A stretch of DNA of 64,000 nucleotides. It comes from Periplaneta americana. Taxonomy: Eukaryota; Arthropoda; Insecta; Blattodea; Blattidae. Each line of letters opens with the position of its first letter. Position 1 is the first letter of the stretch. Of this stretch, positions 1,672 through 62,177 are shown in pieces. Location: contig NC_091119.1 in the NCBI RefSeq assembly GCF_040183065.1, positions 104,522,263-104,586,262 on the forward strand, in the 5' to 3' direction. The notes beneath the pieces are model-generated. The model had not been told where the DNA came from and did no database searches. It saw only the letters and a list, made by a program, of their open reading frames with translations. The position numbers were made by a program, and so were the translations under genes.

Positions 1672-2530
1672 CTCGGTTGAAGTGATCCCACAACAGTAAA
1701 TGATATACAGGGGTTTTAGCACGTACATCACCATCCATGTTATAAACATAAGTGCCTTCTTAACGTAATCAGTTCTCGATATAGAGAGAAACGATAGGAA
1801 GTACAGATTTTACACTACAATAGCAAAGGAAGTGGTAAAATTAACTAGAACTTGGTATGAGTATAATTTGTTGATATGTTCTGAGAGTCGGCACTGATAG
1901 TTCCAGCGATTCAGAAGACTAAGAACACTTATTTTAGACACTGTTCTGGTCCCAGACTTGTTTCTGAACTTTGTTTCTGAATTAAGATGAAGTATGTCTG
2001 TGTTGATATTAGCGAACTCTTGTTTTATCACCAACAAGAAAGAGAGAAACTGAAACTCAGGTATGGCCAGTGAAATCTCGCAGAATAGGTTAAGAGCGAT
2101 AAAATCATTCATCTAAATTATGCTCATATGTCATAAACAAAAGATAGGATGCAAAGAGGAACAGTAGATCTGTCGGTATGAATAGCAGTGATGTCATTGT
2201 GACGCGCTGATGTCTGAACACCAGCAAACTGTTCAGCATGTTGACAATACTACCGAGATGCATGTAATTCAGGAATACGATAGACACGTACGTAACAAAG
2301 AAAAGCGATATCTGTGCATATCCAATTACTTTGGAAAATAAAAATTGTAAGTGATAGAAGTTGAAAATTGTGTCCATTAGTAATACAACGGCATTGCTCA
2401 ACACCACGAAACCACTTAATGTAGACCATGGACGAGACAGTGTCCACTCTTCATGTTGTACATTCTTGTACGGGAATAAGCACAAGATTCTAGAAAATCT
2501 GAATACTAACAACACTAAGGTATTTGTCAT
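1672..2530 (-). pseudogene. GR-1: gustatory receptor long exon, pseudogene
   Basis: This is a duplicate of GR-2 (7143-8003) over the whole exon and both flanks. The start at 2530 matches the GR-2 start (both begin MTNTLVLLVF). A 2-bp deletion near 2105-2120 shifts the frame and brings a TGA in frame. A second lesion near 1805-1810 turns a serine codon of GR-2 into TAA. The exon is 859 bp against 861 bp in GR-2, which fits the 2-bp loss. The splice donor GTGAGT is still present at 1666-1671. The protein would have been a multi-membrane chemoreceptor of the insect 7tm_7 family. Two independent lesions make it a pseudogene unless they are assembly errors. Family assignment rests on GR-2 and on its place in the array. 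Confidence 0.8.
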
Positions 2531-3372
2531 CGTAAGTTGGGAAGAGTTATTATATGTAGTTTGGGCGATGTAACTTCTGTGAGTCTTTGCCTACTGCATG
2601 CTTTTGCGTCAAACTTAGGATAATTAATATTTTCTTTCATTATATTTGCTTACTAACTCTCTTTATTGTGTTTTATCTGGAATTAATCTAAATAAGTAGG
2701 TATACAATGTATAATATATTCATAAATTTGAAGTGGATTATGGAATAATCAACTAATGAACGCACACAAAATATTATAGTAAAAGCAATACAAACAGAAA
2801 ACGTCTTATCTTAATAACATAATTATTTTAAGTGAAATTTGTTTTGTAATATTATTCTTATTTTACTAAATGTTTTGCTATGTTTTCTTAACATTTTTCA
2901 TGAAGTTGGACGTAGAGCATAAAGATGTATGGGGGACGTATTTTTAGGTATATGAATTTAAACATAGGTAATAGATTTTCCTGTTGTCAGCGAGAATATT
3001 CAGGATCAATAAGACGAGATTATGGCGAAAAGGAAGCAACAATAATAAATGATAAATTGACAAAAGGTTCATATAATATCCACGACACTTTGAATATATT
3101 TTTGCTTCATTGTTTTGTATTATCTTGTTATTTTTGATTGTTAGAAATAAGAGTTTTTATTTTATTCGTTTATGTGAAAATAGACTCAAATTTCAGCAGA
3201 ATTAATGCAAGGAAGAAGATGCTGATTATGAAACGAAATTTATATACATTTATTTGAGAAAAGAAAACTGTCCAGAACAATGGAAGCAGTACATATTTGT
3301 ACACAACTTTCAGAATGGGGAACTAGAGATGGGTAAAAAATAACACAACAGTTATTTTGGAACTGTTCCGGT

Positions 3373-3644
3373 CTCGGAACTGTTGCAAAAATGAACAGTA
3401 GGTCGGAACCTCCTGTTCCGAAATAACAGTGTTCCGACTCCGAGCTGCTCACTTGCCCAGCTGTTGCGGGCTCGCAGTACCGCGTTGCACAGGGTATGTT
3501 CCGACTCTCTCGGAACTGTTGCAAAAATGAACAGTAGGTCGGGACCTCCTGTTCCGAAATAACAGTGTTCCGACTCCGAGCTGCTCACTTGCCCAGCTGT
3601 TGCGGGCTCGCAGTACCGCGTTGCACAAGGTATGTTCCGACTCC
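3373..3644. repeat. 136-bp tandem duplication, two copies
   Basis: Copies 3373-3508 and 3509-3644 are nearly identical and lie inside the hAT element. The unit repeats the string gttccga and its complement several times, so it can fold on itself. Confidence 0.8.
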
Positions 3645-4311
3645 GAGATAACAGTCGGAACGTCGGAGCTTGTTCCGATGAACCGACAGCTGCAGTTACA
3701 CTGTTCTCGTTGTTCTTTATGTTATACTTGGAACTTCGTTGGATGAAGTTGGTACTTGAAACTCTCACGTGGTTGGAGGGGGGCGCATGGAAATTGAAAT
3801 CCTTGCGGTGGCGCGAACTTTAATATCAACATTTGTAAGACTGGCCAATCATCTGTAATGTTATAGTAAGTATTTAATAATCTGTAATATTCATTCCCGC
3901 TTTATGGTTTATTTCACCATTAGTTGACTAATTCTGTTTTATAAACATTCTACAAAGTCATAAAGTACGCATACTATTATTAATTCATTGATCAGCTGAT
4001 TCTATACAAAGGTTAAAGTCGTAAATGGTAATGAGTGGTTTAGTTACAATGTCTGTATGTCGTTTGTTGAGGTTAAGTCTGACAAGCACAAGTTTTTGTG
4101 CTATCTTCTCTGTTATCAAAGAACGACAAAAATATTGTAGCATTATTTGTTGGAAACTACCCATATAAGTACTGATTTGGAGAGCGAGGTTTAATGCGAA
4201 GTTTAAATTACACTTTGGTAAAGATGCGATTCCAACATTTTACTAACCCACTGCGGGGTTTCCAGGTTTCAGTACTGCCAATATATATCTTTTTTATTTA
4301 TGAAATTGTAA

Positions 4312-4312
<1 letters not shown>

Positions 4313-4364: not shown

Positions 4365-6451
4365 ACTGCATTAAGAAAAGTAAAAATAAAAATTAATGAT
4401 TTGTTTTTTTTATTATGTAATAGAGAGAAGAGAAATTACATACCATATGTTTTAAATGTTATGTTATTTTTTTTAGTTGGCTACCATGTCTTTATAACTT
4501 TATGTACGAAAACAAAGTGTTGTATTCTGTCCTTGTAGTCAACAGCTGTTTAATTACTAACATTAAGCTTTTGAGTTCTGTCCGCATGCACAGCAATTTT
4601 CCAAAATCGATTCGAATGTGCATTGCAGTGCCATCTATAGATAAGAATGTGTACTATGTCATGCCTATGAGTGCTCCAGTGTGAGCAGCATGGTAAAGAG
4701 GGAGGGTACTGTACCGTTCGTTTGAACGACTCAACGACACCGACTCATCACCACTGGTGACTGTTATTTCGGAACTGTTATTTGGAACATAGTATTTTTT
4801 CGGAACCGGAACAGTCGGAACTGTTCCGGGAAAAGAACAACTTCGCCCATCACTATGGGGAACATACTATCTGTAGTAACTTTCGAGGAATATCACTTTT
4901 GTTGACGTCGTAGAAAATTTTGTCCGATATTATTTTGAGAAGAATAACTCCATATGTAGATTAAATTATAGGGAATCATCAGTGAGGTGTAAGGCGCATT
5001 ACATCGACTAGTGATCAGAGTTTCTGTATTCGACAGATATTGGAGAAAAAAATTAGAGTATAAGGGTATAGTACATCAATTATTTATAGATTTCAAAAGA
5101 CATATGATTCGGTTTAGAGAGGAATTTTATATAATTTTCTTATTAAATTTGGTATTCCCAAGAAACTAGTTCGATTAATTAAAATGTGTCTCAGTGAAAC
5201 TTACAGCAGAGTCCGTATAGGCCAGTTTCTGTCGGATGCTTTTCTAATTCACTGCGGACTAAAGCAAGGAGATGCACTATCACTTTTACTTTTTCACTTT
5301 GCTCTATAATATGACATTAGGAAAATCCAGGATAACAGAGAGGGTTTGGAATTGAACGGGTTACATCACCTGTTTGTCTTTTCCGATGACGTGAATATGT
5401 TAGGAGAAAATCCACAAATTACTAAGGAAAATACGGAAATTTTACTTGAAGCAAGTAAAGAGATAGCTTTGAAAGTGAATCCCGAAAAGATAAAGACCTA
5501 TGATTATGTTTCATAACCAGAACACAGAACATAGTACAAAATGGAAATATAAAAATTGTAAATTTATCCTTTGAAAAGATAGAAAAATTCAAATATCTGG
5601 AAGAAACAGAAACAAATATAAATTACACTCGGGAAGGAAATTAAAAGCATAATAAATAGGGAAAATGCCTGTTATTATTCGGTTGATAAGCTTTTGTCAT
5701 CCAGTCCTCTCTCAAAAATTCTGAAAGTTAGACTTTATAAAACAGTTATATTACCGGTTGTTCTCTATTGTTGTGAAACTTGAACTCTCACTTTGAGAGA
5801 GGAAGAGAGGTTAAGGTTATTTGAGAATAAGGTGCTTAGGATAATATTTGACGAGAAGTCACAGGAGAATGGAGAAAGTTACACAACGCGGAACTGCACG
5901 TATTGTATTTATTACCTGGACATAATTAGAAACATTAAATCTAGAAGCTTGAGATGGGCAGGGCATATCGCACGTATAACCGAATCCAGAAATGCATACA
6001 GAGTGTTTGTTGGGAGGCCGGTGGAAAAGATACCTTTGGAGTGGGCGTGAAGTAGATGGGAGGATAATATTAAAATGGATTTGAAGGAGGTGGGATATGA
6101 TGATAGAGACTGGAATAATCTTCCTCAGGATAGGGAACGATGGCGGGCTTATTTGAGGGCGGCAATGAAACTAAGGGTTCGCTAAAAGTCATAAGTAAGT
6201 AAGTAAATGAAAATAGACAAGTTTCATTTTCACTCTGTTTAAGAAAGTCACGAATTCACGCTGGTTGTGACTGTCTTACGTCCATGAGAAAACAATATTA
6301 ACAAAGTGAATATATTTTAAGTATACCGCCTTGCACATAAATAACGCTTTTTCATTTTGAGTTGACCCCTATTATTGACAGTATCCGATTATAAACGATA
6401 ACGCTAGATTTTTTTATTATATAACGTTTTCATTCACTTACAAGTACAGTA

Positions 6452-7142: not shown

Positions 7143-8003
7143 CTCGACTGAAGTGATCCCACAGTAGTAAATGGTGAATAGAGGTTTTAGCATGTACGTC
7201 ATCATCCACATGACAATCATAAGTGACCCTTTAGCATAATCTGTTTTCGACGTGGAGAGAATAGATAGGAAGTACAAGTTTGACACAACCGTAGCAAAGG
7301 AAGTGGCAAAACTAACTAGAATTTGATGAGAGTATAATTTGTTGATACGTTCTGAGAGTCGGCACAGATAGCTCCAGCGATTCAGAAGACTAACAACACC
7401 CATTTTAGATACTGTTCTGTTCCCAAACTTTTTTTTATATTTTGTTTCTGATTGAAGGTGCAGTAGGTCTGCGTTGATATTGGCGAATTCTTGTTTTATC
7501 ACCAACAAGAAAGATAGAAACTGAAATTCAGGTATGGCCAGCGAAATCTCACAGAATAAGTATATGAGAGAAAAATACACTCCATCTGAGTTATACGCAT
7601 CTGTCATGAAGAACACATAGGATGCAAGGAGGAACAGGAGATCTATCAGTATGAATAGCAGTGATGTCAGGTTCATGCGCTGATTTCCGAACACCAACAA
7701 ACTGTTCAGCATGTTGACAATTCTACCGAGATGCATGTAATTCAGAGATACGATAGACACATACCCAATGCGCACAAGCGACATCTCTACGTACGCGATA
7801 ACTTTGGACAAGAAAAATTTTAAGTCATAGTATATGAAAATTGTGTCCATTAGCAATACAACTGCAATGCTGAACACCACCAAACAACTTAACACAGACC
7901 ATGGACGAGACAGTTTCCACTCTTCATGTTGTACATTCTTGTACGGGAATAAGCACAAGATTCTAGAAATTCTGAACACTAACAACACTAAAGTATTTGT
8001 CAT
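7143..8003 (-). CDS. GR-2: gustatory receptor, long N-terminal exon
   Basis: This exon encodes 287 residues of an insect gustatory receptor (7tm_7 family, a ligand-gated cation channel subunit of sensory neurons). Hydrophobic segments lie at roughly residues 37-58, 66-88, 113-132, 143-170, 225-250 and 262-281. A polar stretch with LLNRW and RINKLYS between the fourth and fifth segments is typical of the long intracellular loop of these receptors. The frame is open to the codon GAG (SVE) followed by GTGAGT, a strong phase-0 donor at 7137-7142. The translation beyond it (a single S and stop) is intron. The last membrane segment with TYxxxxxQF is missing and must come from downstream exons that I could not find. 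GR-1 is its broken duplicate. The start is supported by GR-1. No ligand can be inferred. Confidence 0.85.
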
Positions 8004-10205: not shown

Positions 10206-10989
10206 TCCTGGAGCAGTGATGTCAAAGCAAGCGCATTTTTCTGACCTTGACATCGTGAGCGGGCATCAAGCGCTAGATATGAAAGGAGGACGGATTATCT
10301 ATATGAATAAGCAGCCTGTTGAATTAAGAATACATTGGTGCACAAACTTCAAGTGGAACGTGGAATTTTATGTCGTTATTTTTATATGGCTTTATTCTGT
10401 TCGATATTATATAATTATATTGTCTATAAAACAAAAGTACTAACACCAATTTCTTAATAATGCAGTTCTGTTTAAAAATTAATATAAGGAGTTAAGAAGG
10501 AATATTCGCATAAACCCCATAGTAGTACAACTATACTGTACTAAGTGAATGAAACACATCTTTTGTGAAGAAAGTGATATCCTAGAGAAAGAGTCTAAGT
10601 ATGACATAATAAGTTGAAATTAATATTGCTGGTATATTTGGACTTATAAACGCAATCAATAAACTAATCAAAATAATATTATAGGACAAAGCAAAGTTAC
10701 CTAGATATATGTTTTAACTGTAACTAACATTACATAACAAAACTCTTATCGCTTTATGCTTTTAAGTTGATATTGGTGCGCAACTTCCTATCATCAGAAT
10801 ATTAAATTGTTTTCTCGAATTCTGATGAAGCTATAGAGTTGACGTTTTACCAAAACATGGGCACATATTTTTTTGTTTATGATGTAATAATAGGTGCTTT
10901 CTTAATTCATTTCCTTACAAACATTTTCCATGCGAATGTTTTCAAAATCCATTTTGAATCTTGCGTACACTACTTTTAACACTTGAATA

Positions 10990-11702
10990 TAAGTAATTGA
11001 TTAACTAGCGGACTTACTCGTGTTAATTATGTAAGTCTGTGCGGCTTACAGCTGTTTCGGTGCTTCATCACACCATCCTCAGAGTCTACTAGATCTCGGC
11101 GTCATCTCGAACTTCTCTGCCTGTTGTGTGGGTGCGTTTGATTGTTGAAAGGTGTTGAAAAGTGGAGTCAAATAGTGTTTGTGTACTGAAATTGATCTGT
11201 GTGTTGAGAATTTGATCAGGGCGTGTTTTAGTGTGTCTGTATATTTCATATTGTTCTAGTGTGTTGAGTTTTTGGTTTTTGGGTTGTATTTGTAGGATTT
11301 CCATGTCCGCATTTATGTTATTGTATGTATGGTTAGCATTGGTTATGTAATCGGCGTATGTAGATGTATTGTGTCCTCTGGTTATTGCTTTAATGTGTTC
11401 TTTGTAGCGTGTTTGAAATGATCTGCCTGTCTGTCCAATGTAGAACCTGTCGCAACTATTACATGTGAGTTTGTATACACCTGTGTGGTCGTATTTATTT
11501 GTTAGTGTTGTTTGTGTGTTAAGATGTCTTTGTAGTGTGTTTTCTGTTCTGTATGCTTTGTTGTATTTCTGCTTTCTGAATGAAGATGCGATCTTATGTG
11601 TGCTTTTGTTTTCATATGTTAGTGTGATGTATTTCTTTGTGTTCTTGTGTTTGTGTTGTGTTTTGCGTCTTTTGTGTTTGTTAAGTTTTTGTTTTGTCTT
11701 TC
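10990..11702 (-). mobile_element. Penelope-like retroelement fragment, arm 1 (GIY-YIG)
   Basis: The minus strand encodes the C-terminal part of a Penelope-like element. The GIY-YIG endonuclease core is GVYKLTCNSC then FYIGQTGRSFQTRYKEH, followed by a basic, Asn/Thr-rich tail ending near 11089. No reverse-transcriptase part is present, so the copy is 5'-truncated at the centre of the palindrome. The frame is open from about 11895 to 11089 only because it reads through the loop and into arm 2 before entering arm 1. The outer 100 bp (10990-11090) are non-coding and match arm 2. Confidence 0.85.
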
Positions 11703-11719
11703 TTATGATGTTGTCTATC

Positions 11720-12314
11720 ACAAGAAAGACAAAACAAAAACTTAACAAACACAAAAACACGCAAAACACAACACAAACACAAGAACACAAGAAATACATC
11801 ACACTAACATATGAAAACAAAAGCACACATAAGATCGCATCTTCATTCAGTAAGCAGAAATACAACATATACATATGGCAGATCATTCCAAACACGCTAC
11901 AAAGAACACATTAAAGCAATAGCCAGAGGATACAATACATCTACATACGCCGATCACATAACCAATGCTAACCATACATACAATAACATAAATGCGGACA
12001 TGGAAATCCTACACATACAACCCAAAAACCAAAAACTCAACACACTAGAACAATATAAAATATACAGACACACTAAAACACACCCTGATCAAATTCTCAA
12101 CACACAGATCAATTTCAGTACACAAACACTATTTGACTCCACTTTTCAACACCTTTCAACAATCAAACGCACCCACACAACAGGCAGAGAAGTTCGAGAT
12201 GACGCCGAGATCTAGTAGACTCTGAGGATGGTGTGATGAAGCACCGAAACAGCTGTAAGCCGCACAGACTTACATAATTAACACGAGTAAGTCCGCTAGT
12301 TAATCAATTACTTA
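11720..12314 (+). mobile_element. Penelope-like fragment, arm 2, endonuclease core deleted
   Basis: This is a near-identical inverted copy of arm 1, separated by a 17-bp loop (11703-11719). Relative to arm 1 it lacks about 118 bp that encode the GVY...YIG core, so the endonuclease cannot be functional. The remaining reading frame (RYKEHIKAIARG and the tail) stays open to 12215. The 3' end at 12314 mirrors 10990. Confidence 0.85.
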
Positions 12315-12758
12315 GTTTCAAAAATTTCAATATACAATCTTCAGTAATACGTATTTATGATATATTAGATTTACGAAAATACTGTTTCAGTACCTGTAAG
12401 GTTACTAAATAAACATATCTGAAAATTTCACTTTTCTGTAAAAATGTTTAGCAAATATCCCTTTTGAATAAAAAAGCAAACTTGTGAAAAATGAGATAAA
12501 AATTAAAACTTACATTCTTTTAATGCACTTAAATTTCTCAGACAAATCTAAAAATTAACATGGATACAGTTTTAATAAATTATCTTTAATTTATCCATTG
12601 AATCAGTGCTGGCCATCCTTATATACAGCTCAACCAAGCGGCATATATTGTCTCACTCGTCTATCTCTTTCCTTTCCGCTGTAAAGCGCTCATGCTCTCC
12701 TGAGCTCTAAAGCGCGCGCTTGCGCCTATGGACATCAGTTGACACGACTGTCCTAGAG

Positions 12759-18672: not shown

Positions 18673-19599
18673 CTCTTGAGCAGTAGAGGCGCAGACCCAC
18701 AATATTATACACAGTGAGGCAGCACCTACCAGGAACAAGAAGGAGACGCCCACGTCCATTTGAACACTGTAGATGAAGCACTCTAACTGCAGAACACGTC
18801 GTGCCCCGTAGTACGCATAAATCATCAGTGATGCAAACTTGTACAGTAGGGACAACAACAGCTGACAACATAGTGTTGACATCACCTGGTCACAGACATT
18901 GCACAGACTGCCGTGGTACGTCTTCAAACAAACCAGCAACTCGAAGTTTGTACGTCCGTTTCTGGTGTTAACGACAGTGGAACGATTTGATAAAGCGAGG
19001 GATATTGTACGAAATCTCTGTTTAAACAAAAAGACCAAATTTATATACAGCAAGTCCACTAGTGTAATGGCTGTTGTAGAGAAATGATCTGCACCTGAAG
19101 ATAGACAAGTGGTGGAAGTGAATGGAAAGGAAATGAAATGAAATATCAGAACGAATGAAGACAGTAATAATAAAACAAAAACTTGAAAAACAACATATAC
19201 ACGAGTTCTTCCATAAAGCAAACTCATATCGATTTCCATATTATCAAGTTTTGACAAAATATTAATTACTTTAATGAGCTTATCTGAAGTCAATAAACAA
19301 AAGAAGGAACATATTATTGACGTCACTATGGCGAAGGCGTATATGCCAGCGTGCATCGAAACGTCGAAAATTCCAGCATTTCCTGCTAGCAGGAGTTGAT
19401 GAAATAGCAAACACTTCAGTACCAGCAGCGTCAGCAGGAAAAGAAAACTATAGAATTTGAATATCTTAGATGTCGCTAGTTGACGACCACCAATGCTTCC
19501 TACAATTTTGAAAGGCAAGAGACCATAAAACTTTGCAACGTAGATGAGAGGTGTAATTGCAGAGAAGAAATCGATTTCTTTATTTACACCTCTACCCAT
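18673..19599 (-). CDS. GR-3: gustatory receptor, long N-terminal exon
   Basis: 309 codons, open from ATG at 19599 to a phase-0 donor GTAAGC after STAQE. It belongs with GR-4 and GR-5: all share TPLIYVAKF near residue 16, a GG(R/K)xLATSK motif near residue 38, KxYHGSLCNVC near residue 230 and GAASLCIILWVC near the exon end (FWIC in GR-4). Hydrophobic segments lie at about 46-70, 82-102, 133-160, 170-195, 240-265 and 282-303. That makes six of the seven membrane segments of an insect gustatory receptor (7tm_7). The TM7 segment and its TYxxxxxQF motif are absent. The cysteine-rich GSLCNVCDQV before the fifth segment is conserved across the subfamily. An overlapping frame at 18599-18871 is a shadow. 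Expected role is sensing of taste compounds at the dendritic membrane. Ligand unknown. Confidence 0.88.
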
Positions 19600-24589: not shown

Positions 24590-25919
24590 GTACCTGTCTA
24601 AAAAGTATCCGACCTTAATTTTTCCCGCGTAAAGTTGTGATTCTAAGGCGGCGCCACTGTGCATGGTGGAAGGAGGAACTGTAATGCGCATGCTTGAATT
24701 TTTTCACCGCATTCGCTTGTGCCAGTCACTGGCTGGTGGTCGCCAAGTAAGGTGCTGTTCTAGGTGTTTGTCGGATTTAGTTTTCTCGCAAGATGACTGA
24801 ACGAATTGAGCAAAGATACTGCATCAAATTTTGTCAAAAGCTTGGTGATTCTCAAAGTCAAACAATTCGTAAGATTCAGCAGGTGTTTGGGGAAGATGCG
24901 ATGGGTGTAACACAAATTAAGGAGTGGTTCAACCGATTCAAAGATGGCCGCACATCAGCGGAGAGTGAGCAGCGTTGTGGCAGGCCCCAAACTGCTCGGA
25001 GTGCATCTGTTGTTGAGAGGGTGCGAAATTTGGTGATGGCAGATCGTCGTTTGACCGTGCGGGAGATTGCCGAAGAGGTTGGAGTGAGTAAAGATTCTGC
25101 ACATGCAATTTTGCGTGATGATTTGAACATGAACCGAGTGGCTGCGAAATTCTTGCCCAAGTTGTTGTCCCCGGAACAAAAGGACCTCCGTCGTGACGTT
25201 GCACAGGACCTTCTGGACACCGCCAACACTGATCCTGGGTTTCTGAACACCGTGATAACTGGAGATGAGTCATGGGTGTACGGGTACGACCCAGGAACAA
25301 AAAGACAGTCGTCGCAATGGAAGCATCCCGAGTCTCCAAGGCCGAAGAAAGCGCGGCAGGTGCGAAGCAAAATCAAGGTGATGCTGACTGTTTTCTTTGA
25401 TGTCCGTGGAATTGTGCATCACGAATACGCACCGGAAGGACAAATGGTGACAAAGGAGTACTATCACGATGTTCTCCGGCGACTCCGTGATGCAGTTCGG
25501 CGCAAAAGACCAGACATGTGGACGGCGAACAACTGGCACTTGCATCACGACAACGCCCCCGCACATTCATCCCAATTGATACACACTTTCTTGGCCAAAC
25601 ATGGAATTACAACCGTTCACCAACCTCCCTACTCTCCAGACCTGGCTCCTTGCGACTTCTGGTTGTTTCCAAAATTGAAGACACCACTGAAAGGATCCCA
25701 TTTTGAGAGTAGAGAAGAGATAATGCGGAATGCGACGACGGAGCTGAACACCATTCCAAAAGAAGACTTCCAGAGGTGTTTCCGGCAGTGGAAGGATCGG
25801 TGGGCTAAGTGTGTGCAAGCACAAGGGGCCTACTTTGAAGGGGATTAGGGTCCCAACCCCGTCAGGTATTTGAAATATTTTTTCTGGCTAAAGGTCGGAT
25901 ACTTTTTAGACAGACCTCG
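24590..25919 (+). mobile_element. mariner element with intact transposase
   Basis: Inverted ends share TGTCTAAAAAGTATCCGACC. TA flanks lie at 24588-24589 or 24591-24592 and at 25920-25921. The left end seems to lack about two bases compared with the right (which reads CGAGGTC before the shared part), so that terminus is slightly damaged. It contains one uninterrupted transposase gene and looks like a recent arrival. Confidence 0.92.
24793..25848 (+). CDS. mariner transposase (DD34D)
   Basis: 351 residues, the usual mariner length. The N-terminal half carries two helix-turn-helix regions (about residues 6-55 and 85-112, the second including LTVREIAEEVGVS) for binding the inverted ends. The catalytic triad is Asp158 (TGDES), Asp253 (HHDNAPAH) and Asp288 (YSPDLAPCDFWLF), with 34 residues between the last two, which defines the DD34D mariner group. 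The linker motif FLPKLLSPEQK precedes the catalytic domain. The start is the first Met after the 5' untranslated ~200 bp. No stop or frameshift is visible, and all three acidic residues are present. It catalyses cut-and-paste transposition at TA. Activity cannot be judged from one copy. Confidence 0.95.
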   Translation: MTERIEQRYCIKFCQKLGDSQSQTIRKIQQVFGEDAMGVTQIKEWFNRFKDGRTSAESEQRCGRPQTARSASVVERVRNLVMADRRLTVREIAEEVGVSKDSAHAILRDDLNMNRVAAKFLPKLLSPEQKDLRRDVAQDLLDTANTDPGFLNTVITGDESWVYGYDPGTKRQSSQWKHPESPRPKKARQVRSKIKVMLTVFFDVRGIVHHEYAPEGQMVTKEYYHDVLRRLRDAVRRKRPDMWTANNWHLHHDNAPAHSSQLIHTFLAKHGITTVHQPPYSPDLAPCDFWLFPKLKTPLKGSHFESREEIMRNATTELNTIPKEDFQRCFRQWKDRWAKCVQAQGAYFEGD

Positions 25920-28277: not shown

Positions 28278-29210
28278 CTCTACGGCCGTGGAGGAGCAGA
28301 TCCAGAACATGATACATAGTGAGGCAGCATCTATCAGAAACGTGAAATACACAGCCGCGTTCATTTGACCAATGGAGGTGCAGCGCTCGTACTGCAGAAC
28401 ACGTCGAGCCTCGTAGTACGAAGACATCATCAGGTGTGCAAACTTGTACATAATAGACCACACCAACTGATAACATAGTGTTGACATTACCTGATCACAG
28501 ACATTGCACAGACTGCCGTGGTACGCCTTCAGACAAAATAACAACTCGAAATTCGAACGTGCGTTTGTGTTATTAATGACAGTGGAATAATCTGACAAAA
28601 CGATAGATACTCTACGAAACCTCTCTTTTAACAAATAAACCAAGTTTATAAACAGCAAGTCCATTTGATAAATAGCTGTTGTTAAGAAATAATCTGTAAA
28701 CAAAGATAAACAGGTGAAGAAATTGAGTGGTATGAAAGTCAAATAAAAAATCACAAGGAATGAAGACAGTAAAAGTAAAATAAAAACTTGAACAGTTACA
28801 GATATGCGAGTTTTTCTATACAGCACACTCATATCAATTTCCTCAATTTCCATGTTATCAAGTTTTGCCAAATTATTGATTACTTCAAAAATCTTGTCAG
28901 AAGTCAGTAAAGTAAATGAGGAGGACACTAATGACGTCAGTGTACCGAAAGCGTACATGCAATTTTGAATCAAATGAACAAAAATATTCTGGTTTTCTAT
29001 CAGCTGTTCACGAGTTAGAAAACACTTCGCCGTTAGTAGTGTCATCTGGAAAACGAAACTGCGGAACTTGAACATCTTAGATGTCGCTAGTCGACGACCA
29101 CCAATGCCTCCTACAATTCTGAACGGTAAGAAACCATGAAACTTGGCAACATAGATAAGAGGTGTAACTGCAGTGTAGAAGTCCATTTCTTTTGCTATCC
29201 TTCTATGCAT
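28278..29210 (-). CDS. GR-4: gustatory receptor, long N-terminal exon
   Basis: 311 codons from ATG at 29210 to the phase-0 donor GTGAGC after STAVE. It is a close paralog of GR-3 and GR-5 with the same landmarks in the same order: TPLIYVAKFHG, GGRRLATSKMFKF, LLTSDKIFEVINNLAKLDN near residue 110, KAYHGSLCNVCDQV and DAASLCIMFWIC. Compared with GR-3 it has two extra residues near the conserved NMEIDMS segment (NMEIEEIDMS). Six hydrophobic segments fit the first six membrane helices of a 7tm_7 receptor. The last helix is not in this exon. No defect is visible. The upstream 450 bp parallel those of GR-5, so the duplication unit is at least exon plus promoter. Confidence 0.9.
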
Positions 29211-36445: not shown

Positions 36446-37372
36446 CTCTTCAGCCGTAGAGACGCAGACCCATAATATGATACACAGTGAGGCAGCACCT
36501 ACGAGGAACATGAAGCAGATTGTCGCATCCAGTTGAACACTAGAGATGCAGCACTCGTCCTGCAGAACACGTCGAGCACCGTAATACACAGTGGCCATCA
36601 GGATTGCAAAATTGTACATAATAGACCACAGCAGTTGACAACATAGTGCTGACTTTACCTCATTACAGACATCACACAGGCTACCGTGGTACGCCTTCAA
36701 ACAAACCAACAACTCGAAATTCGAACGTCGCTTGGTGGTATTAATAACTGTAGAATAGTCTGACAAAGCGACGTAGATTATACGAAACCTCTGTTTTAAC
36801 AAGGAGACGAAGTTTATAAACAGCAAGGCCACTTGATAAATGACAGCCGCAATGAAATAATCTGTAGCAAACAGTATGCAGTTGGCGACATTGAACGAGG
36901 TGCCTGCCATATAAAATGCCACATACAAAGAAGACAGTAAAAATAAAATAAAAACTTGAACAACTACACATACGCGAGTTTTTTTATACAACACAGTCAT
37001 ATCAGTTGCCATGGCATCAAGATTTGCCAAATTATTAATTGCTTCAATAATCTTGTCGGAAGTCAGTAAGCTAAATAAGGATGACGCTAATGACATCACT
37101 GTGCCAAAAATGTTCATATTTTTTTCCACCGATTGTACAAACGTGTTCTGATTTTCTATCCGCAGGTGTTCATGAACTAGAAAACACTTCACCGTGAGTT
37201 GTGTCATCTGTAAAAGTAAACTATAGATCTTGAACATCTTAGATGTCGCTAGTTGACGACCACCAATGCCTCCTACAATTCTGAACGGCAAGAGACCATG
37301 GAACTTGGCAACGTAAATAAGAGGTGTAACTCCAGAGTAGAAATCGATTCCTTTTGCTGCGTTTCTATGCAT
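36446..37372 (-). CDS. GR-5: gustatory receptor, long N-terminal exon
   Basis: 309 codons from ATG at 37372 to the phase-0 donor GTGAGC after STAEE. It is the closest paralog of GR-4, with TPLIYVAKFHGLLPF, GGRQLATSKMFK, LLTSDKIIEAINNLANLD, KAYHGSLCDVCNEV and GAASLCIILWVC in the same order. Six hydrophobic segments. The exon stops just before the expected TM7. The cysteines of the HGSLCxVC motif are kept in GR-3, GR-4 and GR-5. No stop or frameshift. Expected in the dendritic membrane of taste neurons. Ligand unknown. An overlapping minus-strand frame at 36741-36971 is a shadow. Confidence 0.9.
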
Positions 37373-45997: not shown

Positions 45998-47236
45998 TTT
46001 AACATTTATCCTTTGAAGAGGTGGAAAAATTCAAATATCTTGTAGCAACAGTAATAAATATAAATGACACTCGGGAGGAAATTAAACGCAGAATAAATAT
46101 GGGAAATGCCTGCTATTATTCGGTTGAGAAGCTTTTGTCATCTAGTCTTACTTACTTACTGGCTTTTAAGGAACCCGGAGGTTCATTGCCGCCCTCACAT
46201 AAGCCGCCATTGGTCCCTATCCTGAGCAAGATTAATCCATTCCCTGCCATCATATCCCACCTCCCTCAAATCCATTTTAATATTATCCTCCCATCTACGT
46301 CTCGGCCTCCCCAAAGGTCTTATTCCCTCCGGCCTCCCAACTAACACTCTATATGCATTTCTGGATTCGCCCATACGTGCTACATACCCTGCTCATCTCA
46401 AACGTCTGGATTTAATGTTCCTAATTATGTCAGGTGAAGAATACAATGAGTGCAGTTCTGTGATGTGTAACTTTCTCCATTCTCCTATAACTTCATCCCT
46501 CTTAGCCCCAAATATTTTCTTAAGCACCTTATTCTAAAATACCCTTAACCTATGTTCCTCTCTCAAAGTAAGAGTCCAATTTTCACAACCATAAAGAACA
46601 ACAGGTAATATAACTATTTTATAAATTCTAACTTTAAGATTTGTTGACAGCAGACTGGATGATAAAAGCTTCTCAATCGAATAATAACAGGTATATCCCA
46701 TATTTATTCTGCGTTTAATTTCCTCTTTGTCATCTAGTCTGCAGTAAAAAAATTTGAAAGTTAGAATTTATAACATAGTTATATTACCGGTTGTTTGTAT
46801 GGTTGTGAAACTTGGACTCTCACTTTGAGAGAGGAACAGAGATTAAGGATGTTTGAGAATAAGGTTCTTAGGAAAATATTTGGGGCTAAGAGGGATGAAG
46901 TTAGAGGAGAATGGAGAGAGTTACACAACACAGAACTGCACGAATTTTATTCTTCACCTGGCATAATTAGAACATTAAATCCAGACGTTTGAGTTGGTCA
47001 GGGCATGTAGCACGTATGGGCGAATCCAAAAATGCATATAGAGTGTTAGTTGGGAGGCCGGAGGGAATAAGACCTTTGGGGAGGCCGAGAAGTAGATGGG
47101 AGGATAATATTAAAATGGATTTGAGGGAGGTGGGATATGATGGCAGGGACTGGATTAATCTTGCTCAGGATAGGTACTGATGGCGGGCTTGTGTGAGGGC
47201 GGCAATGAACCTTCGGGTTCCTTGAAAGACATAAGT
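45998..47236 (+). mobile_element. RTE LINE fragment with a second RTE nested inside
   Basis: The outer copy is plus strand: [10 protein letters not shown]-type sequence from about 46000 to 46148, resuming at 46741 and continuing to GRPEGIRPLGRPRSRWED and the AAGT tail at about 47225-47236. The interruption is a minus-strand RTE fragment. Flanks tatttctttaac on the left and tattttttaac on the right may be the outer target duplication. Decayed. Confidence 0.85.
46149..46725 (-). mobile_element. Nested RTE 3' fragment
   Basis: A perfect 15-bp duplication tttgtcatctagtct lies at 46134-46148 and 46726-46740. The TTAC tail sits at its low-coordinate end, so it is minus strand, 577 bp, 5'-truncated. 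Younger than the RTE it interrupts. Confidence 0.92.
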
Positions 47237-47470
47237 AAGTAAGTATGTATTTTTTAACAATGCTTTCAACTGTAGAAGTTATTTAGAGTTGAAATTCAAT
47301 ATGGGCGAGAGATGATCAGTAAGTTTTGTCTGGAGTCTTCTTTCAGCGGTAGGACTGTGTTCCTGTGGAGGCACATGTGCCTGTTAAGGTATATGGCGTG
47401 CTTAAAACTTTTATGCTGCAGAATGTCTCATATACGAATAATTTCCTAGAAATGTGGGAAAAAAACTCAC

Positions 47471-48328
47471 CTCTTCACTACACGAAATGCAGGAAAGCAA
47501 CAGGCAGAAGTATCTCGTCATGAAGAAACAAGTAGATAGTAATGGCGTGTACGATGTGCCCAGAGTGTCCAATGCCACGAGGCACGTTACAACGCTGTAT
47601 AGATCATGGGTGATTCCGATGAAAGTGATGGCAGTGTTCAGGAGGACCAGTGGCGAGTAAACGGAATTCGCCAAGAAAGCGAGCTCACAGAGGGCGTCGT
47701 GCTGAAGCATCAAGGCTTCCAAGCAGTCCCGCGGACAGATTGGTCCTGACAGACGGGAGTTGGCATCGGCGAAAGTACTTCTTAGCAAGGGCAGGGCGGC
47801 GCAGAACTGAATCTCCACCACAAAGGTGGAGATGGGCACGAAGACGCACGCGAAGCAGAAGGGCAGAAACGATATACTGAAGTGATCGCAACAGTACGAT
47901 ATAGAGAACGAACCAAGACCTACGAGGTAGGCGATCAACTGCACGCTCAATACCTTCGTGACGAGTTTGCTGTGTCTTAAGTCGAAAACCTGTCCAGTAC
48001 AGCGCAAGTACTTTTCCTTTTTGTACACACATTCGAACAAAACCGTAAATCGCGCTAACACATAAAGACTGAAAACAAGAGCGGATATGATTGTGTGCAA
48101 TACACGGCCAAGTTTCATCAAGTCCAGAAACCATCTCGTCAGACTTACAAGTGACGTCGTCATGGAAACAATCGTGAACCCAAACGTGTAAAAAATGGAT
48201 AATTTCGATTCACGCATCTGGATCGAATAGTTTTCATTGCGTATCGAGAAAGGAACAAATACGCAAACTTTGCACGCAAAAAATATGCACATTATCATCG
48301 AGTGCCCACGTTCGTTCATCATCTTCAA
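47471..48328 (-). CDS. GR-6: divergent gustatory receptor, long exon
   Basis: 286 codons from ATG at 48328 to the phase-0 donor GTGAGT (47465-47470) after SCSEE. Overall sequence differs strongly from the other units. Length, six hydrophobic stretches (about residues 10-25, 48-65, 78-98, 125-160, 228-250 and 258-280), the exon end at a Glu before a phase-0 donor, and orientation place it in the array. LMLQHDALCELAFLANSVYS near residue 205 corresponds to the L..h..LC....hN..hS loop motif just before the fifth helix of insect gustatory receptors. TM7 is not included. Start is the first Met. A second Met three codons later would also serve. Frames at 47685-48134 are shadows. Confidence 0.8.
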
Positions 48329-49890: not shown

Positions 49891-50055
49891 AAATCAAAAT
49901 TTATGTTCAGAAATTCTATTTATCGATATCAATACTTCATAGTCACGTGGTTGAATAACGTTATCCAAGATACTAAGAAATCGCAAAACAAAAGGAACAA
50001 TAATATTCTCCACCATGCTGCAGGGGTTTCTTTCATAAAAATTAACTTCTCTTAC

Positions 50056-53000
50056 TTACAAATGGCTTTTAAGGAACTCGCAGGTTCATTGCCGCCCTCA
50101 CATAAGCCCGCCATTAGTCCCTATTCTCTGCAAGATTAATCCAGTCTCTATCATCATATCCCACCTCCCTCAGATCCACTTTAATATTATCTTTCCATCT
50201 ACGTCTCGGTCTCCCCAAAGGTCTTTTTCCCTCCGGTCTCCCAACTAACACTCTATATGCATTTTTGGATTCGCCCATACGTGCTACAAGCCCTGCCCAT
50301 TTTAAACGTCTGGATTTAATGTTCGTAATTATGTCAGGTGAAGAATGCAATGCGTGCAGTTCTCTGTTATGTAACTTTCTCCATTCTCCTGTAACTTCAT
50401 CTCTCTTAGCCCCAAATAATTTCCTAAGAAACATATTCTCAAACACCCTTAATCTATATTCCTCTCTCAAAGTGAGAGTCCAAATTTCACTACCATACAG
50501 AACAACAGGTAATATAACTGTTCTATAAATTTTAACTTTCAGATTTATTGACAGCAAACTAGATAACAAAAGGTTCTCAACCGAATATTAACAAGCATTT
50601 CCCATATTTATTCTGCGTTTAATTTCCTCCCGAGTATCATTTATATTTGTTACTGTTGCTCCAAGATATTTGAATTTTTCCACCTCTTCGAAAGATAAAT
50701 CTCCAATTTTTGTATTGACGTTTCGTAGAATATTCTGGTCACGAGACATAATCATATACTTCGTCTTTTCGGGGTTTACTTCCAAACCTATGGCTTTACT
50801 TGCTTCAAGTAAAGTTTCCGTGTTTTCCCTAATCGTTTGTGGATTTTCTCCTAACATATTGACGTCATCCGCATAGACAAGAAGCTGATGTAACCCGTTC
50901 AATTCCAAACCCTCTCTGTTATCTTGAACTTTTCTAATGGCATATTCTAGCGACGTTAAAAAGTAAAGGTGATAATGCATCTCCTTGCTTTAGCGAGCAG
51001 TGAATTGGGAAGCATCAGACAAAAGCTGGCCTATACTGTCTCTGATGTAAATTTCATAGAGACACATTTTAATTATTCGAATTAGTTTCTTGGGAATACC
51101 AAATGCAATAAGAATATTATATAAAATTCTCTCTTAATAACGTCATGTGCCTTTTTGAAATCTATGAATAAATGATGTACTGCACGCTTACACTCCCATT
51201 TTTTCTCCAACATCTGTGGAATAGGCCTACAAAAAATCTGATCAATAGTCGATCTATTACGCCTAAAACCACACTGATGATCCCCAATAATTTCGTCTAC
51301 ATACGGAGTTAATGTTCTCAAAAGAATATTGCACAAAATTTTGTAAGACGTCAACAAAAGTGATATTTCTCGAAAGTTACTACAGTTAGTCTTGTCCCCC
51401 TTCTTAAAAATAGGTACAATTATGGTCACCTTCCATTGTTCTGGTACAATTTCCTTTCCCCAAATAGCAAGTAGAAGCTTATAAATTTTGCAAGAAAATG
51501 CGCTTCCACCCTTTTGTATTAATTCTACTAGAATTTGATAGATAGCTACCTGGAGACTTGTACGTTTTCAGATTTTCTATCGTAATTTCGACTTCAGAAA
51601 GTGTGGGTTCGGATACAAATGGCTTAGCAGTTTGTGTTTTAATTTCGTCCCTATGTACATTTAGTATTTGCCCAAAATAGTTCTTCCATCTTTTCAAGAT
51701 TGAATGTGAGTCTGCAAGCAAGTCACCATTCTCATCCTTGATCACGTTTACCCTTGCCTGATATCCGTTCTTAAATTCCTTTTTAAATCTCAAATATTTT
51801 TATTCTCACTATTTGTTTCTACCTCATTCAGTTTTTCCTTCAAGTAATCTCTCTTTTTATTCCTAAGTGTACGACTTGCTTTCCGTCTGTCATTGAAATA
51901 ATTATCCCTATTCGCCTCAACTGGATCCTGTAAGAATTTCAATTTTGCCTGTTTCCTTCTTTCTACTACCGTGCAGCAATCTTCATCAAACCACGGTTTC
52001 TTTCTCTTGGTTTCATAATAATCTATCCTCTGCCCAGCTGCAATTTTGATACTATCTCTGATATTTTCCCATACGCTATTATCATTTAAGTCTTTCTCAA
52101 CTTCGTCGGACCTTTCTAAAGTGGCATACCTATTTGAAATTTCGACCTGATAATGTTGCTTAGCTTCTTCGTCCTTTAATTTCAGGATATGAAATCTAGG
52201 CCTACTAGTATTAACTTGTTGCTCTACTCACTTGGTTCCTGATGGTCTTTCTCTCAATTCTCCAATTACCAAATAATTGTCAGAATTACAGTCTGCCCTC
52301 CTGAAAGTTCGAATGTCTGCTATACTAGAATGTCTTCGTTTATCTATCAAGATGTGATCTATTTGGTTGTATGTCAATCCATCTGGATAAGTCCAAGCAT
52401 GTTTATGTATATCCTTATGGGGAAATATTGTACTTTTGACAATTAAATTTTTTGAAGTCGCAAAATTGACTAACCTACCTCCATTGTCATTACTAGACAC
52501 GAGTAGGCTCCTTTTCCAATAGTTGCTTCACAAATATCCTTCCGTCCTACTTCAGCGTTGAAATCCCCTAATAAAATTTTCATGTGATACCTAGATAACT
52601 GATCAAAAGTGTGTTCCAATTCCTCGTAGAAGCTATCCTTTATATTGGCATCTTTCTGTTCTGCAGGGGCGGGGGTGAGCATTTTTAACTATGATATCGC
52701 ACTATCTACCCTTAAGTACTAAATACGATCACCTGTCACTGATAAATTCGACCTTTTTTTACTGCCGATTTTATTCTTTTATGAAATTGGTGATCAGTGT
52801 TTCCTTCCCCATAATACAACATGCAATCTCCTATTTGTGATATGCCATTCCCATATAACCTAACCTCTTGTATTCCCACGAAGTCTATTCTATATCTAGC
52901 TATATCTTTTGCTACTAATGTTACCCTTCCTGTTCTATAAAGACTAGTTACTTTCCAAGTTCCAAATCTCATGACATTATTCCTTTGCTATGGTCGTGCC

Positions 53001-53508: not shown

Positions 53509-54531
53509 CTGGTACTGCGCCGCGTGGCAGGAAGAAACCAGCAAAATAGTCTTGAGCAGAAAGTACACCGTCCATGGGACACCGAAAAACCACCAGCTAC
53601 AGCTACAGTTCCATTCATGGTTGCACGTGATGAAAAGGGACAACACGTAGTAACTGTTGCATAACAGGCAAATGAAATTATATGTCAAGTTCGCCACCAG
53701 GTTGAGCGAGAATATCTGGTTCAACTCGTTTGAGACCTCGCACAGATGCAAGTGGCGCATTTCGAGAAGCCTCAGTCTTCCTAGCAGTTGAGTATCTGGC
53801 AGTGTTTTGTGTGCAGAATTATGATCGGTGTACACTATTGAACTGAAGTGATTTTCTGTAACTGTTTCTTTGTTATATCGGTTGATAGAACACTCGCTAA
53901 CTCCTATTGGTGTAAATTCAGCCTCGAAACACATCGCGTCTTCTTCATTATTCTTCTTGAAGAGCAATTCCAATTCATTGTTGAGCTGAACAAAGTGATT
54001 CTCAACAATCCTGACGAGAATTTCGAACTGACATTCCACTGCACCGCTCGTTATCTCCATTGTGTAGTTTGACATAAGGAATACAAAGTCATAGGCAGAT
54101 CTGATCCATACGATAAAATCTGTTATGTAGAGTCCGGAGAGTAATGCGAGAATGGCGTACTGGATCCCGCTGTTCACATCGACCAGAATCTCCAATATGG
54201 TCTTCCGCAGCGTTTTTCTCTGTGTGAAGTACAAAAAAATTGCCGATATGTACATTCCAAAGGTGATGACTGACTGGACGATGCTGATGGAGTTCGTGAA
54301 AGGGGAGGCAAATCCGTACACCCGGTCTTCCTTGATGAGGTTTATAAGTTGTAAACTTGCAACGAATGTCATTACAGTAATGCTGTACAGTGCTGAAAAC
54401 TTCGATACGTTTGGTGATTTTATTTCTGGTATCGTCAATGGAGCGAAGCCAAAAATATATAAGATAAGGAATAGGAATCTCATATTATAATCGTTGATAC
54501 AAAATGTATTCAAACCCTTAAAATCTGACAC
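53509..54531 (-). CDS. GR-7: divergent gustatory receptor, longest exon
   Basis: 341 codons from ATG at 54531 to the phase-0 donor GTAATT (53503-53508) after HAAQYQ. It has about six hydrophobic segments (roughly residues 18-35, 48-66, 80-102, 124-142, 279-302 and 310-330). A long hydrophilic loop between the fourth and fifth segments carries NNELELLFKKNNEED. After it comes LLGRLRLLEMRHLHLCEVSNEL, followed by NQIFSLNLVANL. This L..h..LC.....N..hs..h loop is characteristic of insect gustatory receptors, and here it is the clearest in the window. About 30 residues longer than GR-3 to GR-5, mostly in the loop. The GTAATT donor is weaker than the others. TM7 not included. Opposite-strand frames (53848-54072, 54152-54490) are shadows. 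Confidence 0.85.
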
Positions 54532-56381
54532 GAAAATATAGCTGTCTGCGTATTTAAAGTGAGTCGTTTATACTTATATAAGCAACTTTGAAAGCACCTA
54601 TTGCATAGAAATTAATATTGAGTTATCTACTTACATACATGTATTATTTTGGTTAAAATCAGTTCAATTATGTAATTTCCGTTAATTACATACTGTCACT
54701 GCACTCAGTACACATCAATTGTTGCTTGACATCCTACATTCAGTAAATAATACTACAATTCTTACACTTTATCAGACTAGAAAAATTGAATTGTCATAAA
54801 AATTACGCATGAAAGTGTTGTTATTCTTCGGTTCAGGTGGTAACTCAATTATATCGGATCAAATTTGGAAGAACAAACTGAAATGTTACTCTCAATAAGA
54901 AAGATAAGTTTCGTCTTCCTTCACTGGCGTTCGTCCAGCGTTGTCTTGAATGTTAACTTTCCGCCAAAATGATTACATGACCAGAATATTCCACTAGTTG
55001 AGTATATTTAATGTTGATTAATAATTCCCGCAGCGTTGAATATGAAACGTGTCAAAAGGACGAATATCTGAATTATATGATGATAATATGTATCAAACAT
55101 ATGATCATGAACTAGAGAACTGAATAAAATTACACACAAACAATGACACTCAAACTCGATTCTCAACACGACTCTGGATGTTTTCTTATAATGCTACATA
55201 GAGTCGCATTCCATTGGTTGTATGGGTTATCCCTTTTACTTTCATTATCTACTTGGAAGCGTTCATAAAACCAAATTGTTCTCAAGACTTGTCGACTCTC
55301 TGATCACGTCACTTGCACGTCACTGTTTTTTGTCGTAAAATAGAGAATTGAACTGTTTACGAACACTAAGTATTATGTCGATATGTCGTTCGCTGTCAAG
55401 CACTTAGGAAAACAAATAAATTCGTATTTTTATCAGATTGTAAATGTTTTCCGTTATTAGTTAATAAAATAAAATTACTTAATTGAATAAAGGAGTTATC
55501 CTTGCCATAAAATAAAACTAATTAACCGAATAAGTTTAATAATGCCTGCCATGGCTTACTCCACGAGTGATTATGACTTATTCAACGTAGCTTTTAAACG
55601 ACGATCGTGGATTTGAGTCCCATATAGTGTCATCGGTAATGAGCTGTTGTGAATCTAATGTCCTGTGACTCATGCAGTATAACAATTGGGTTGTATTCGA
55701 AAAGAATTGATTACTCTATGTACTTAAATGAGAAGGAATTAATTACAGCAATTTTTACTATGATTCTAATGGATTGAAGGAAATATTTCGGTTATTGTTT
55801 CATAAACATTATCATTAGTTACAGTTTAAAATAAATATGAATCGCAGTTGCTTCAATCACATTTTCGCCAGTTTTCGTTTATTTATTTTTTCTTCACATA
55901 TTAAGATGACTCATTTTGTGTTAAAAAGCCATCAGTCCCTTTGCAGACTGTCCATCATCGCTGATTTGTGGTGGACAAAGCCAAGGTTGTGAGGGTATCT
56001 CAGTGGATCTGCACTTTCACTTCATTATTCCACCAATATTCCATGTTTTTACATTTAATTATCAATATTACTTTCTACTTCTAAAAAAAATAGGGCACTA
56101 CTTGTGTTTGCGTGACGCCAAATCGATCGTCCGTCATGGTGGGTTTTCCTTGCTCTTTGTACAAAAATATTGGCAGATGGCAGTCGTGGTGGATTTTAGA
56201 CTCAGAAGTGTGAAAGAAGAACCGGAGCCTCGTCTGACAAAGACATTGTACATGTAGGTCAGTAAAATACTACAGATACGATATCGGAGATATGGTCTAC
56301 GGATTTCGTAACTGTAGAGGAATACGTACTGTGGCGGACGGTGCAGACGGATTAGCCGGCCAGCACAATTCTCACGCAATA
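54532..56381. other. Upstream of GR-7; no other gene
   Basis: AT-rich. Read for a C-terminal receptor exon of GR-8 without success. The plus-strand frame at 56003-56257 has no recognised similarity. Confidence 0.4.
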
Positions 56382-60110: not shown

Positions 60111-60983
60111 AATTTAAAGAATTCATCAAACAAAAAGCTGCAATCTCTGTTATTTTCTTGAAATAAAAACTGCTTCTAAACTTTAAAATAATATTGGCTT
60201 TCAAGTAACGATTAATCTATTATACATAACCTCCTAAAACACTTTTGAAAATATTGTTAACGGTTATATGAGAGTATAATTAGCTATTTGAATCTCTGAG
60301 AAAATACAGTATTCAATTGACAATCAAATTTACAAAAAGTAATTTAATTATTTTGAACAGGCTTTCAGAAGATTACTTTCTAGGCCTAGTTCATCATACA
60401 AGCTTACAGGAGAATATTTTGTCTTCTAGTGTAGTGGGAATAAATTTGAGTACTGAAAACTAAATGTTAAATATATCTCTTAAATAATAAGTTCCAACAT
60501 CATCTGAATAATTTTTATTAAGTTATGAATGTTAATTATTTATAGGTTGTTAAATGAATTTCTAATGGAATTTGGATCCTCTTCTTTATGATCACTGATT
60601 TTATACCCAGATAATATACTGTGATTTATTACTTGTAATAATATTTTGTGCATATTTTTCTTTTATAAATAACTAATTCAATCATGTCAGTCATATAAGA
60701 ATCTAGGATTTACTATTACGAACTTATAATCCATAAAATTTCGCACCGGTTTAGTGAAGTTTGCTCAAAGGTAAGAGATTACGTATTGCATCCTCAATAA
60801 AATCCTTATTAGTATAAATCCACAGGTATGACTATCTAACATCCCATTGGTTCGGAAGTTGAATCTAGCGAAAATGGTTTATATTAAAAGTTTTTGTTCT
60901 TGGAACGATGCAAATGGTTGCAAAATGTATATAAGCAATTTGAGTAAATCTATGTTGTTCTACGGTTAGAAAATAGTGCTATC
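60111..60983. other. Intergenic downstream of GR-8
   Basis: AT-rich, no gene, no C-terminal receptor exon found. Confidence 0.4.
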
Positions 60984-61201
60984 AATCATCAAATTATGGT
61001 TTATTTAACGACGCTCGCAACTGCAGATGTTATATCAGCGTCGCTGGTGTTCCGAAATTTTGTTCCGCACGAGTTTTTTTATATACCAGTACATCTACTG
61101 ACATTAGAACACTTAAGTGCCATCGATCTGGGTCCGGGATCGAACCCGCAATATCGAGCACAGAAGGCCAGCGCTATACGACTACGCTACCGAGGCCGAC
61201 C
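60984..61201 (-). mobile_element. tRNA-derived SINE, family S2, copy 2
   Basis: Same family as 22038-22269. B box gggttcgatcccgg near 61136-61149 (read on the minus strand). Duplication agtgctatc at 60975-60983 and 61202-61210. It lies only about 70 bp past the donor of GR-8, in the presumed intron. Confidence 0.85.
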
Positions 61202-61277
61202 AGTGCTATCCAATGAGTGCGTGTGTAAGAACGAATTTTTGTTTGAAGTTCAACATATTAACTTCGAAAATACTCAC

Positions 61278-62177
61278 CGTGACACATGTGCAAGAACAGG
61301 ACCATAACAGATGGAACAGAGGCACTACGATCAGCAGTCCAATGCACAGAACGATGCCGTTCACACCATCCCTGTTGATCACTAACGTGCAGTCCACCAT
61401 TCGAGCCACACTATAATGCATGTATATCGTGGAGGAAATAAATTTGAAGGCCATTGAACACAATAAAATGAGCGAGAACTTTTGGGAAAGGGTTTCAACT
61501 GCGTCACACACGCGAGCATTCCGCCTCACCAAATCCATCAGTAGGTGCAAGTGAGTAGAATTCAGCTGTAAGCTGATAGAGAGAAACATATCCTTGAGAA
61601 ACGAGACCAAACTTATGAACAATACGTCGAAGTACAGAATAGTGGTGATGTCAAAGTAATTCATGAGGCTTTCCATTGCCTGAAAACCCTTGTCCATGGA
61701 GATTGAAAAACAAAAGTAGATGAGAACTATGCAAATGACAACATACGAGCCAATTTGGAATGTACAGAACAGCAAATTCCCCTGCAAGGAAGAGTGCATA
61801 TTTATCTCCTGCTGGGAAAGCTCGGCCAAGTTATTGATGACTTCCATTATTTCACCACTTTTGAAGAAACTTAAGACGAACGATATGTAGGATGTAATAC
61901 CAACCAGGTTACGTAGACTCATGTGAGTATAAACTACAAATTTGTTGTCTGTGTGCAATTTGAGCTGGTAAACTTGGGTCACCACCTTGATCTTTAGGGC
62001 CGCGATAACCAGCGGCAATACAAAGCTAAAGAACTTAGCCAGTCTGGACTTCTCCAGTGCGCGATGCCCTACTTCTCCTTTTAGAACAAAGGGCAGAAGA
62101 CCATGAAATTTTGTGATGGAGATGAGTGGAAAAATTGTAGAGTAAAAGTCTCGCTTTCTCGCTTTAAATACAGTCAT
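61278..62177 (-). CDS. GR-8: gustatory receptor, long N-terminal exon
   Basis: 300 codons from ATG at 62177 to the phase-0 donor GTGAGT (61272-61277) after CTCVT. It is a distant member of the GR-3/4/5 group: FPLISITKFHGLLPF near residue 16, then a G..G.RALEKSRLAKF stretch aligning with the GGRxLATSKMFKF of that group, then SGEIMEVINNLAEL aligning with SDKIxExINNLAxLD. Six hydrophobic segments at about 46-68, 82-108, 130-157, 165-188, 232-255 and 270-295. The loop motif RRNARVCDAVETLSQKFS corresponds to HGSLCNVCDQV of the paralogs but keeps only one Cys. The open frame beyond the donor (ending HALIG) is intron plus SINE boundary. TM7 absent. No defect seen. Confidence 0.87.

Follow-up and report, generated by a model that had tools for sequence, protein, structure and literature searches.

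A putative alternatively spliced gustatory receptor locus of Periplaneta americana, with at least 27 long exons and one three-exon tail

The gustatory receptor (GR) gene Gr214 of Tribolium castaneum (TcasGr214) has been described as having 30 long 5' exons that share three 3' exons (PMC6307266), AglaGr99 as encoding up to 17 proteins (PMC6720082), and Gr60 of Blattella germanica (BgerGr60, or Gr60a-m) as having 13 long exons, the largest such case reported in that paper (PMC6175461). Three shared C-terminal exons have also been described for Drosophila Gr39a (PMC3011837). Here we analysed a 64,000-nucleotide stretch of the Periplaneta americana genome, referred to below as the window (C3:104522263-104586262, where C3 is contig NC_091119.1 of assembly GCF_040183065.1; the source genome is 3.23 Gb in 91 contigs). 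Its minus strand carries eight GR long exons, named U1 to U8, each with a phase-0 GT donor. Judged from sequence, the window appears to be the middle of one alternatively spliced GR locus with many long first exons and one three-exon tail, a reading to which we give a probability of roughly 0.9. The Periplaneta genome paper reports 522 GRs, and the only word beginning with "splic" in its main text concerns orthology methods (PMC5861062).

The locus belongs to a known gene type, with alternative long first exons and a shared tail, and is an unusually large example of it. It shows the genomic features of the Gr39a, TcasGr214 and BgerGr60 type: several same-strand long exons whose phase-0 donors mark the first of the three ancestral 3' introns, and, downstream of them, a single set of three short exons in phase 0. 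TcasGr214 has the same layout and an equal number of constant exons, but is from another insect order and has slightly more long exons (30 versus at least 27), a comparison made by exon number and not by bases (PMC6307266, PMC6720082). Gr60a-m and the other Gr51-94 and Gr418-430 genes of B. germanica likewise come from a cockroach genome; BgerGr60 has 13 long exons as against at least 27 here, and the two are likened by layout and not by orthology (PMC6175461). Gr39a resembles this locus in its long alternative N-terminal exons, its three shared C-terminal exons and the gain and loss of long exons by lineage, but only four proteins are predicted from it in D. melanogaster (PMC3011837, PMC6307266).

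A preliminary description of the window had claimed eight same-strand GR long exons. These are present on the minus strand, and the start that had been given for U8, 62177, is correct. The units, with a slash marking the exon/intron boundary of each donor, are:

1672..2530, minus strand: U1, broken GR long exon; donor GAG/GTGAGT; reading frame changes between its two halves, and an in-frame TAA lies at 1810-1812
7143..8003, minus strand: U2, intact GR long exon, 287 amino acids; donor GAG/GTGAGT
18673..19599, minus strand: U3, intact GR long exon, 309 amino acids; donor GAG/GTAAGC
28278..29210, minus strand: U4, intact GR long exon, 311 amino acids; donor GAG/GTGAGC
36446..37372, minus strand: U5, intact GR long exon, 309 amino acids; donor GAG/GTGAGC; AlphaFold model like solved GRs
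47471..48322, minus strand: U6, intact GR long exon, 284 amino acids; donor GAG/GTGAGT
53509..54483, minus strand: U7, intact GR long exon, 325 amino acids; donor CAG/GTAATT
61278..62177, minus strand: U8, intact GR long exon, 300 amino acids; donor ACG/GTGAGT

Donors had been placed with their first intron base at 1671, 7142, 18672, 28277, 36445, 47470, 53508 and 61277, and all eight proved to be GT in phase 0. Scored with a simple donor matrix, they fall within the top 0.08-0.73% of the 3,711 GTs on the minus strand; the weights used for donors and acceptors are consensus values and not derived from this genome. U2 to U8 are intact; U1, which had been counted with them, is broken by its change of frame and its stop codon. 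U2 is 71-74% identical to the pieces of U1, U6 is 80% identical to a long exon at C3:104462092-104462943, and U7 has relatives at C3:104467903 (76%) and C3:104666334 (52%). As had also been stated, the exons end at an equivalent position: when the seven intact units are aligned with 30 intronless GRs of this genome (the best 30 of 114 listed matches in a 7tm_7 search, and not a random sample), all seven finish in a single column. This column lies just ahead of a stretch ANRTxxLxxKLLL in several rows, and the approximately 70 profile positions of 7tm_7 beyond it, including the last helix, are absent from the long exons.

Taken alone, four of the seven intact exons (U2, U3, U6 and U7) match Pfam 7tm_7 (PF08395) at E<=1, three of them above the curated cut-off and U6 below it, and these matches finish at profile position 289-296 of 370. 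U4, U5 and U8 alone gave no 7tm_7 match at E<=1, and are linked by alignment, U3 to U5 being mutually 58-64% identical and U8 25-28% identical to U3-U5; U5 is linked by its fold as well. An AlphaFold model of U5 matches the solved receptors BmGr9 (8vc2) and DmGr43a (8jm9) at 15-16% identity and ends at residue 374 and 353 of these, respectively, short of the C-terminal part expected from the constant exons. A PDB sequence search with single long exons U5 and U7 gave no relevant entry, and no viral-contig relatives were found for the one query used, U5.

Separate ordinary GR genes would each need small C-terminal exons of their own in the gaps between units. The preliminary description had reported none; its search was made by eye, and short exons are easily overlooked in this way. 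A C-terminal profile built from the 30 intronless GRs and scored on every frame agreed with it, returning background scores alone. When held-out sequences were tested, with rows at least 60% identical removed from the profile, exon 3 was recovered in 30 of 30 cases at 31.0-56.1 bits, as against a best minus-strand score of 6.4 bits in the window, and 29/30 exon-4 and 28/30 exon-2 sequences scored above the best of that strand. The top scores in the window (exon 4, exon 3, and exons 3 and 4 together) were 10.3-11.4 bits, none of them receptor-exon-like with splice sites; two shuffles in the same run gave 9.5-10.2 bits, and other shuffles, from a scan of 224 kb, reached 12.7-13.1 bits, beyond these top scores. 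On the plus strand the best exon-3-like score was 10.7 bits at 62552 (shuffles, 9.5 in the same run and 12.7 in the 224-kb scan). A relaxed search for TYxxxxxQF gave 25 minus-strand and 21 plus-strand matches in the window, none receptor-exon-like. Two candidates were rejected: the only minus-strand sequence that fits TYxxxxxQF strictly, at 3451, which lies inside a 136-bp tandem repeat and is not receptor-like, and a weak minus-strand match around 54619-54630, which scores at background level. Missed private C-terminal exons were thus sought in the window by regular expression, by a hand-made profile with spike controls and by the 30-GR profile, and were found by none of them.

It had been predicted that constant exons would lie left of position 1, and a profile search of 100 kb in that direction had been proposed. 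This search revealed exactly one three-exon C-terminal set, the single detectable one, 76-80 kb left of the window, on the minus strand and in phase 0:

C3:104446165-104446233, minus strand: constant exon 2, 69 nt, 18 bits; AG acceptor, donor GTGAGT, phase 0
C3:104445991-104446080, minus strand: constant exon 3, 90 nt, 65 bits; AG acceptor, donor GTAAGA, phase 0
C3:104442364-104442516, minus strand: constant exon 4, 153 nt, 28 bits; AG acceptor, phase 0, ends in a stop

The best other scores for exons 2, 3 and 4 were 10.3, 8.8 and 10.2 bits in the left 100 kb, and 12.0, 12.7 and 13.1 bits in the contiguous 224 kb (C3:104422263-104646262), shuffles included. No second C-terminal set was detected in these 224 kb or in the next 10 kb rightward. 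The exon-3 peptide was also searched against the genome, with 96 matches among the 150 candidates scored out of 186; the next exon 3 rightward was at C3:104915947, 470 kb away, and none was listed between 104446080 and that position. Even with the incomplete detection of exons 2 and 4, separate genes with overlooked exons are very improbable, given the recovery of every held-out exon 3, the large gap between those scores and the best of the window's minus strand, and the fact that a real set 76 kb away was found at once.

The long and constant exons cover complementary parts of 7tm_7: those long exons that have a match (seven in all) end at position 289-298, and the constant part alone spans 299-369. 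When U2, U5, U6 and U8 were spliced in silico to the constant exons, each product gave a single full-length match (2/3-369 of 370; E 1.8e-35 to 8.6e-44; 123-151 bits versus a cut-off of 26.6), in a sample of four of the 24 open units and with 90 bits of the score given by the shared tail alone. The C-terminal GR signature TYxxxxxQF is present as TYLVILIQF in constant exon 4. Another explanation is that each long exon makes a truncated six-helix protein by itself, its frame running shortly past the donor and no seventh helix being spliced on. The window reading frames do continue for 2 to 23 codons beyond the donor before a stop, but all eight window units retain a donor and its phase, for which a self-contained exon would have no use, and it is the constant tail that supplies the remaining profile positions; we find this explanation the hardest of all to credit.

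An alternative-first-exon array of more than 60 kb had been proposed. That reading is supported, and the array is larger, extending past both ends of the window; approximately 261 kb lie between the outer end of the last unit and the stop codon of constant exon 4. It contains at least 27 long exons (24 open and three broken), all on the minus strand and all upstream of the constant set; 27 is a lower bound, as units of the U8 and 104456469 types may be missing right of 104656262. The Drosophila Gr39a locus is far smaller. The contiguous 224 kb holds 22 long exons, seven left of the window, eight within it and seven to its right (two of these broken). Outside the window the units are:

between C3:104456469 and 104515622, minus strand: seven open long exons left of the window
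between C3:104591070 and 104703157, minus strand: twelve long exons right of the window, ten open and two broken
C3:104646516, 104653392, 104666334, 104686805 and 104702234, minus strand: those five of the twelve that lie beyond the 224 kb

A decayed long-exon fragment with three stops, at C3:104649900-104650160, is outside the count of 27. With the best phase-0 GT near the exon end taken, the donor score is at least 3.8 in 18 of the 19 open units of the 224 kb, and the donor read in four of the five units beyond is GAG/GTGAGT or GAG/GTGAGC.

Each long exon encodes the start of a receptor and its six membrane segments (S1-S6), with a phase-0 donor where read. If these exons form one locus, a transcript would start at one long exon, presumably from that exon's own promoter, and the donor of the chosen exon would be spliced to C3:104446233, where constant exon 2 has its acceptor. 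Every product would then finish with the same 103 residues from exons 2, 3 and 4, among them TYLVILIQF and the seventh membrane helix. Long exons downstream of the chosen one would be skipped in splicing, on the simplest view because they are without a 3' splice site of their own. The outcome would be up to 24 receptors, presumably serving in taste, in which the S1-S6 part, the presumed ligand binder, varies, and the last helix and its surroundings are constant. GR and odorant receptor structures give the last helix a role in the pore. Long exons as internal cassette exons were rejected, in a test of low power: acceptor scores around the ATG exceeded the 90% null line in one of 19 units, no better than random stretches, and two of the three real acceptors, those of exons 3 and 4, also fell below the line. 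A fuller picture is possible but doubtful, in which a single 261-kb transcription unit would have some 24 working alternative promoters, promoter choice would be receptor choice, possibly exclusive per neuron, and first exons of six or more highly divergent GR subfamilies (with identities of approximately 20% in some pairs) would share one strongly conserved tail for very different ligand-binding parts.

Several points weigh against the single-locus reading. Exons 2 and 4 are not always detected, and the acceptor test had little power. The interval C3:104656263-104915947 was covered in pieces (its last 18 bases and two stretches of approximately 1 kb), and 150 of 186 candidates were scored in the exon-3 search of the genome. 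A C-terminal set in that interval could thus escape, although it would touch only units 104666334, 104686805 and 104702234. Unit 104456469, the closest to the constant exons, has a poor donor, CAG/GTATCC, with a score of 1.4; the farthest unit would require a 261-kb primary transcript; and three of the 27 units are broken. The ratio of nonsynonymous to synonymous substitution (dN/dS) is 0.66 in each of the three U3-U5 pairs (upper bounds 0.89-0.96), which points to some constraint on the open units, though a weak one; when U2 is compared with each half of the broken U1, the values are 0.65 (upper bound 1.13) and 0.38.

The broken units, the decayed fragment, a dN/dS of about 0.66 and primary transcripts of more than 100 kb for the far units would also suit an array that is largely a graveyard, in which splicing to the constant exons persists in some units only and the rest, perhaps those far away, are relics. 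We regard this as unlikely: 24/27 units are open, the donor was read in 23 open units and is good in 22 of them, the upper bounds of dN/dS are below 1 in all three U3-U5 pairs, and the worst donor is that of the nearest unit, while those of the farthest units are good. For the working units it overlaps the single-locus reading, and the odds of the two are not mutually exclusive.

In a tree, the 30 intronless GRs and the 19 open units of the 224 kb lie on opposite sides of one branch, which has support 93/86 and occurs in 96% of bootstrap trees; several end branches are long. Most matches to individual units fall inside the locus (U5, 14/18; U2, 9/11; U6, 2/3; U7, 3/3; unit 104607107, 10/11), as do all matches of these queries above 28% identity. 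The duplicated blocks (U1/U2, U3/U4, U3/U5 and U4/U5) consist of a long exon with upstream DNA and contain no C-terminal exon. The common flank of U1/U2 is 375 bp upstream and approximately 420 bp beyond the donor; that of U3/U4, U3/U5 and U4/U5 is approximately 0.4-1 kb upstream, with nothing significant downstream; U3/U8 and U6/U7 have no significant common flank. Subfamilies are interleaved and U6-U7 neighbour pairs recur approximately 107 kb apart, a hint that blocks of several exons, as well as single exons, may have been duplicated within the locus. Exon 3 of this set and that of the next set on the chromosome differ at 16 of 90 bases and are identical in protein; a shared tail predicts just this, an exon 3 protein that is unchanged while the long exons change quickly.

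Copies of exon 3 also occur elsewhere, at C3:104915947 (minus strand), C3:100101123, 100253678 and 100402678 (plus strand) and C12:157897585 (minus strand), with 93-100% protein identity to the constant exon and in short open frames of 61-135 amino acids. These are probably sister loci with the same layout. A long exon at C3:100214893 is 27% identical to U6. Full-length GRs in single open frames, apparently intronless, are clustered at C11:118.1-118.4 Mb, at C16:119.2-119.5 Mb and in several places on C2.

If the single-locus reading is correct, a sizeable share of an insect taste repertoire can occupy one locus with one common tail, and gene counts made exon by exon would score its units as fragments or as separate genes. 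The locus would also offer a clean test of promoter choice in a taste neuron, with two dozen promoters spread across a quarter of a megabase, and of the way in which a single constant channel tail serves S1-S6 parts that are only approximately 20% identical.

Other elements were found in the window. An open frame of 355 amino acids for a mariner/Mos1-type transposase (Transposase_1, HTH_48, DDE_3) lies inside the array at 24781-25845 on the plus strand. Related copies of a non-long-terminal-repeat retrotransposon occur at 4857-6206, 26366-27362, 46004-47249 and 50051-51567, with approximately 82-94% identity in aligned pieces and an RVT_1 match in both frames tested; the copy at 46147-47243 forms an inverted pair arranged head to head. 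An imperfect palindrome of 924 bp, with 81% self-complementarity, occupies 33001-33924. Both of its arms carry a tRNA-Asn-like sequence (33179-33252, minus strand, and 33629-33702, plus strand), and it may be a tRNA-derived foldback element. Finally, an inverted repeat at 10983-12321 has 445-bp arms that are 98% identical, with a central palindrome between them.

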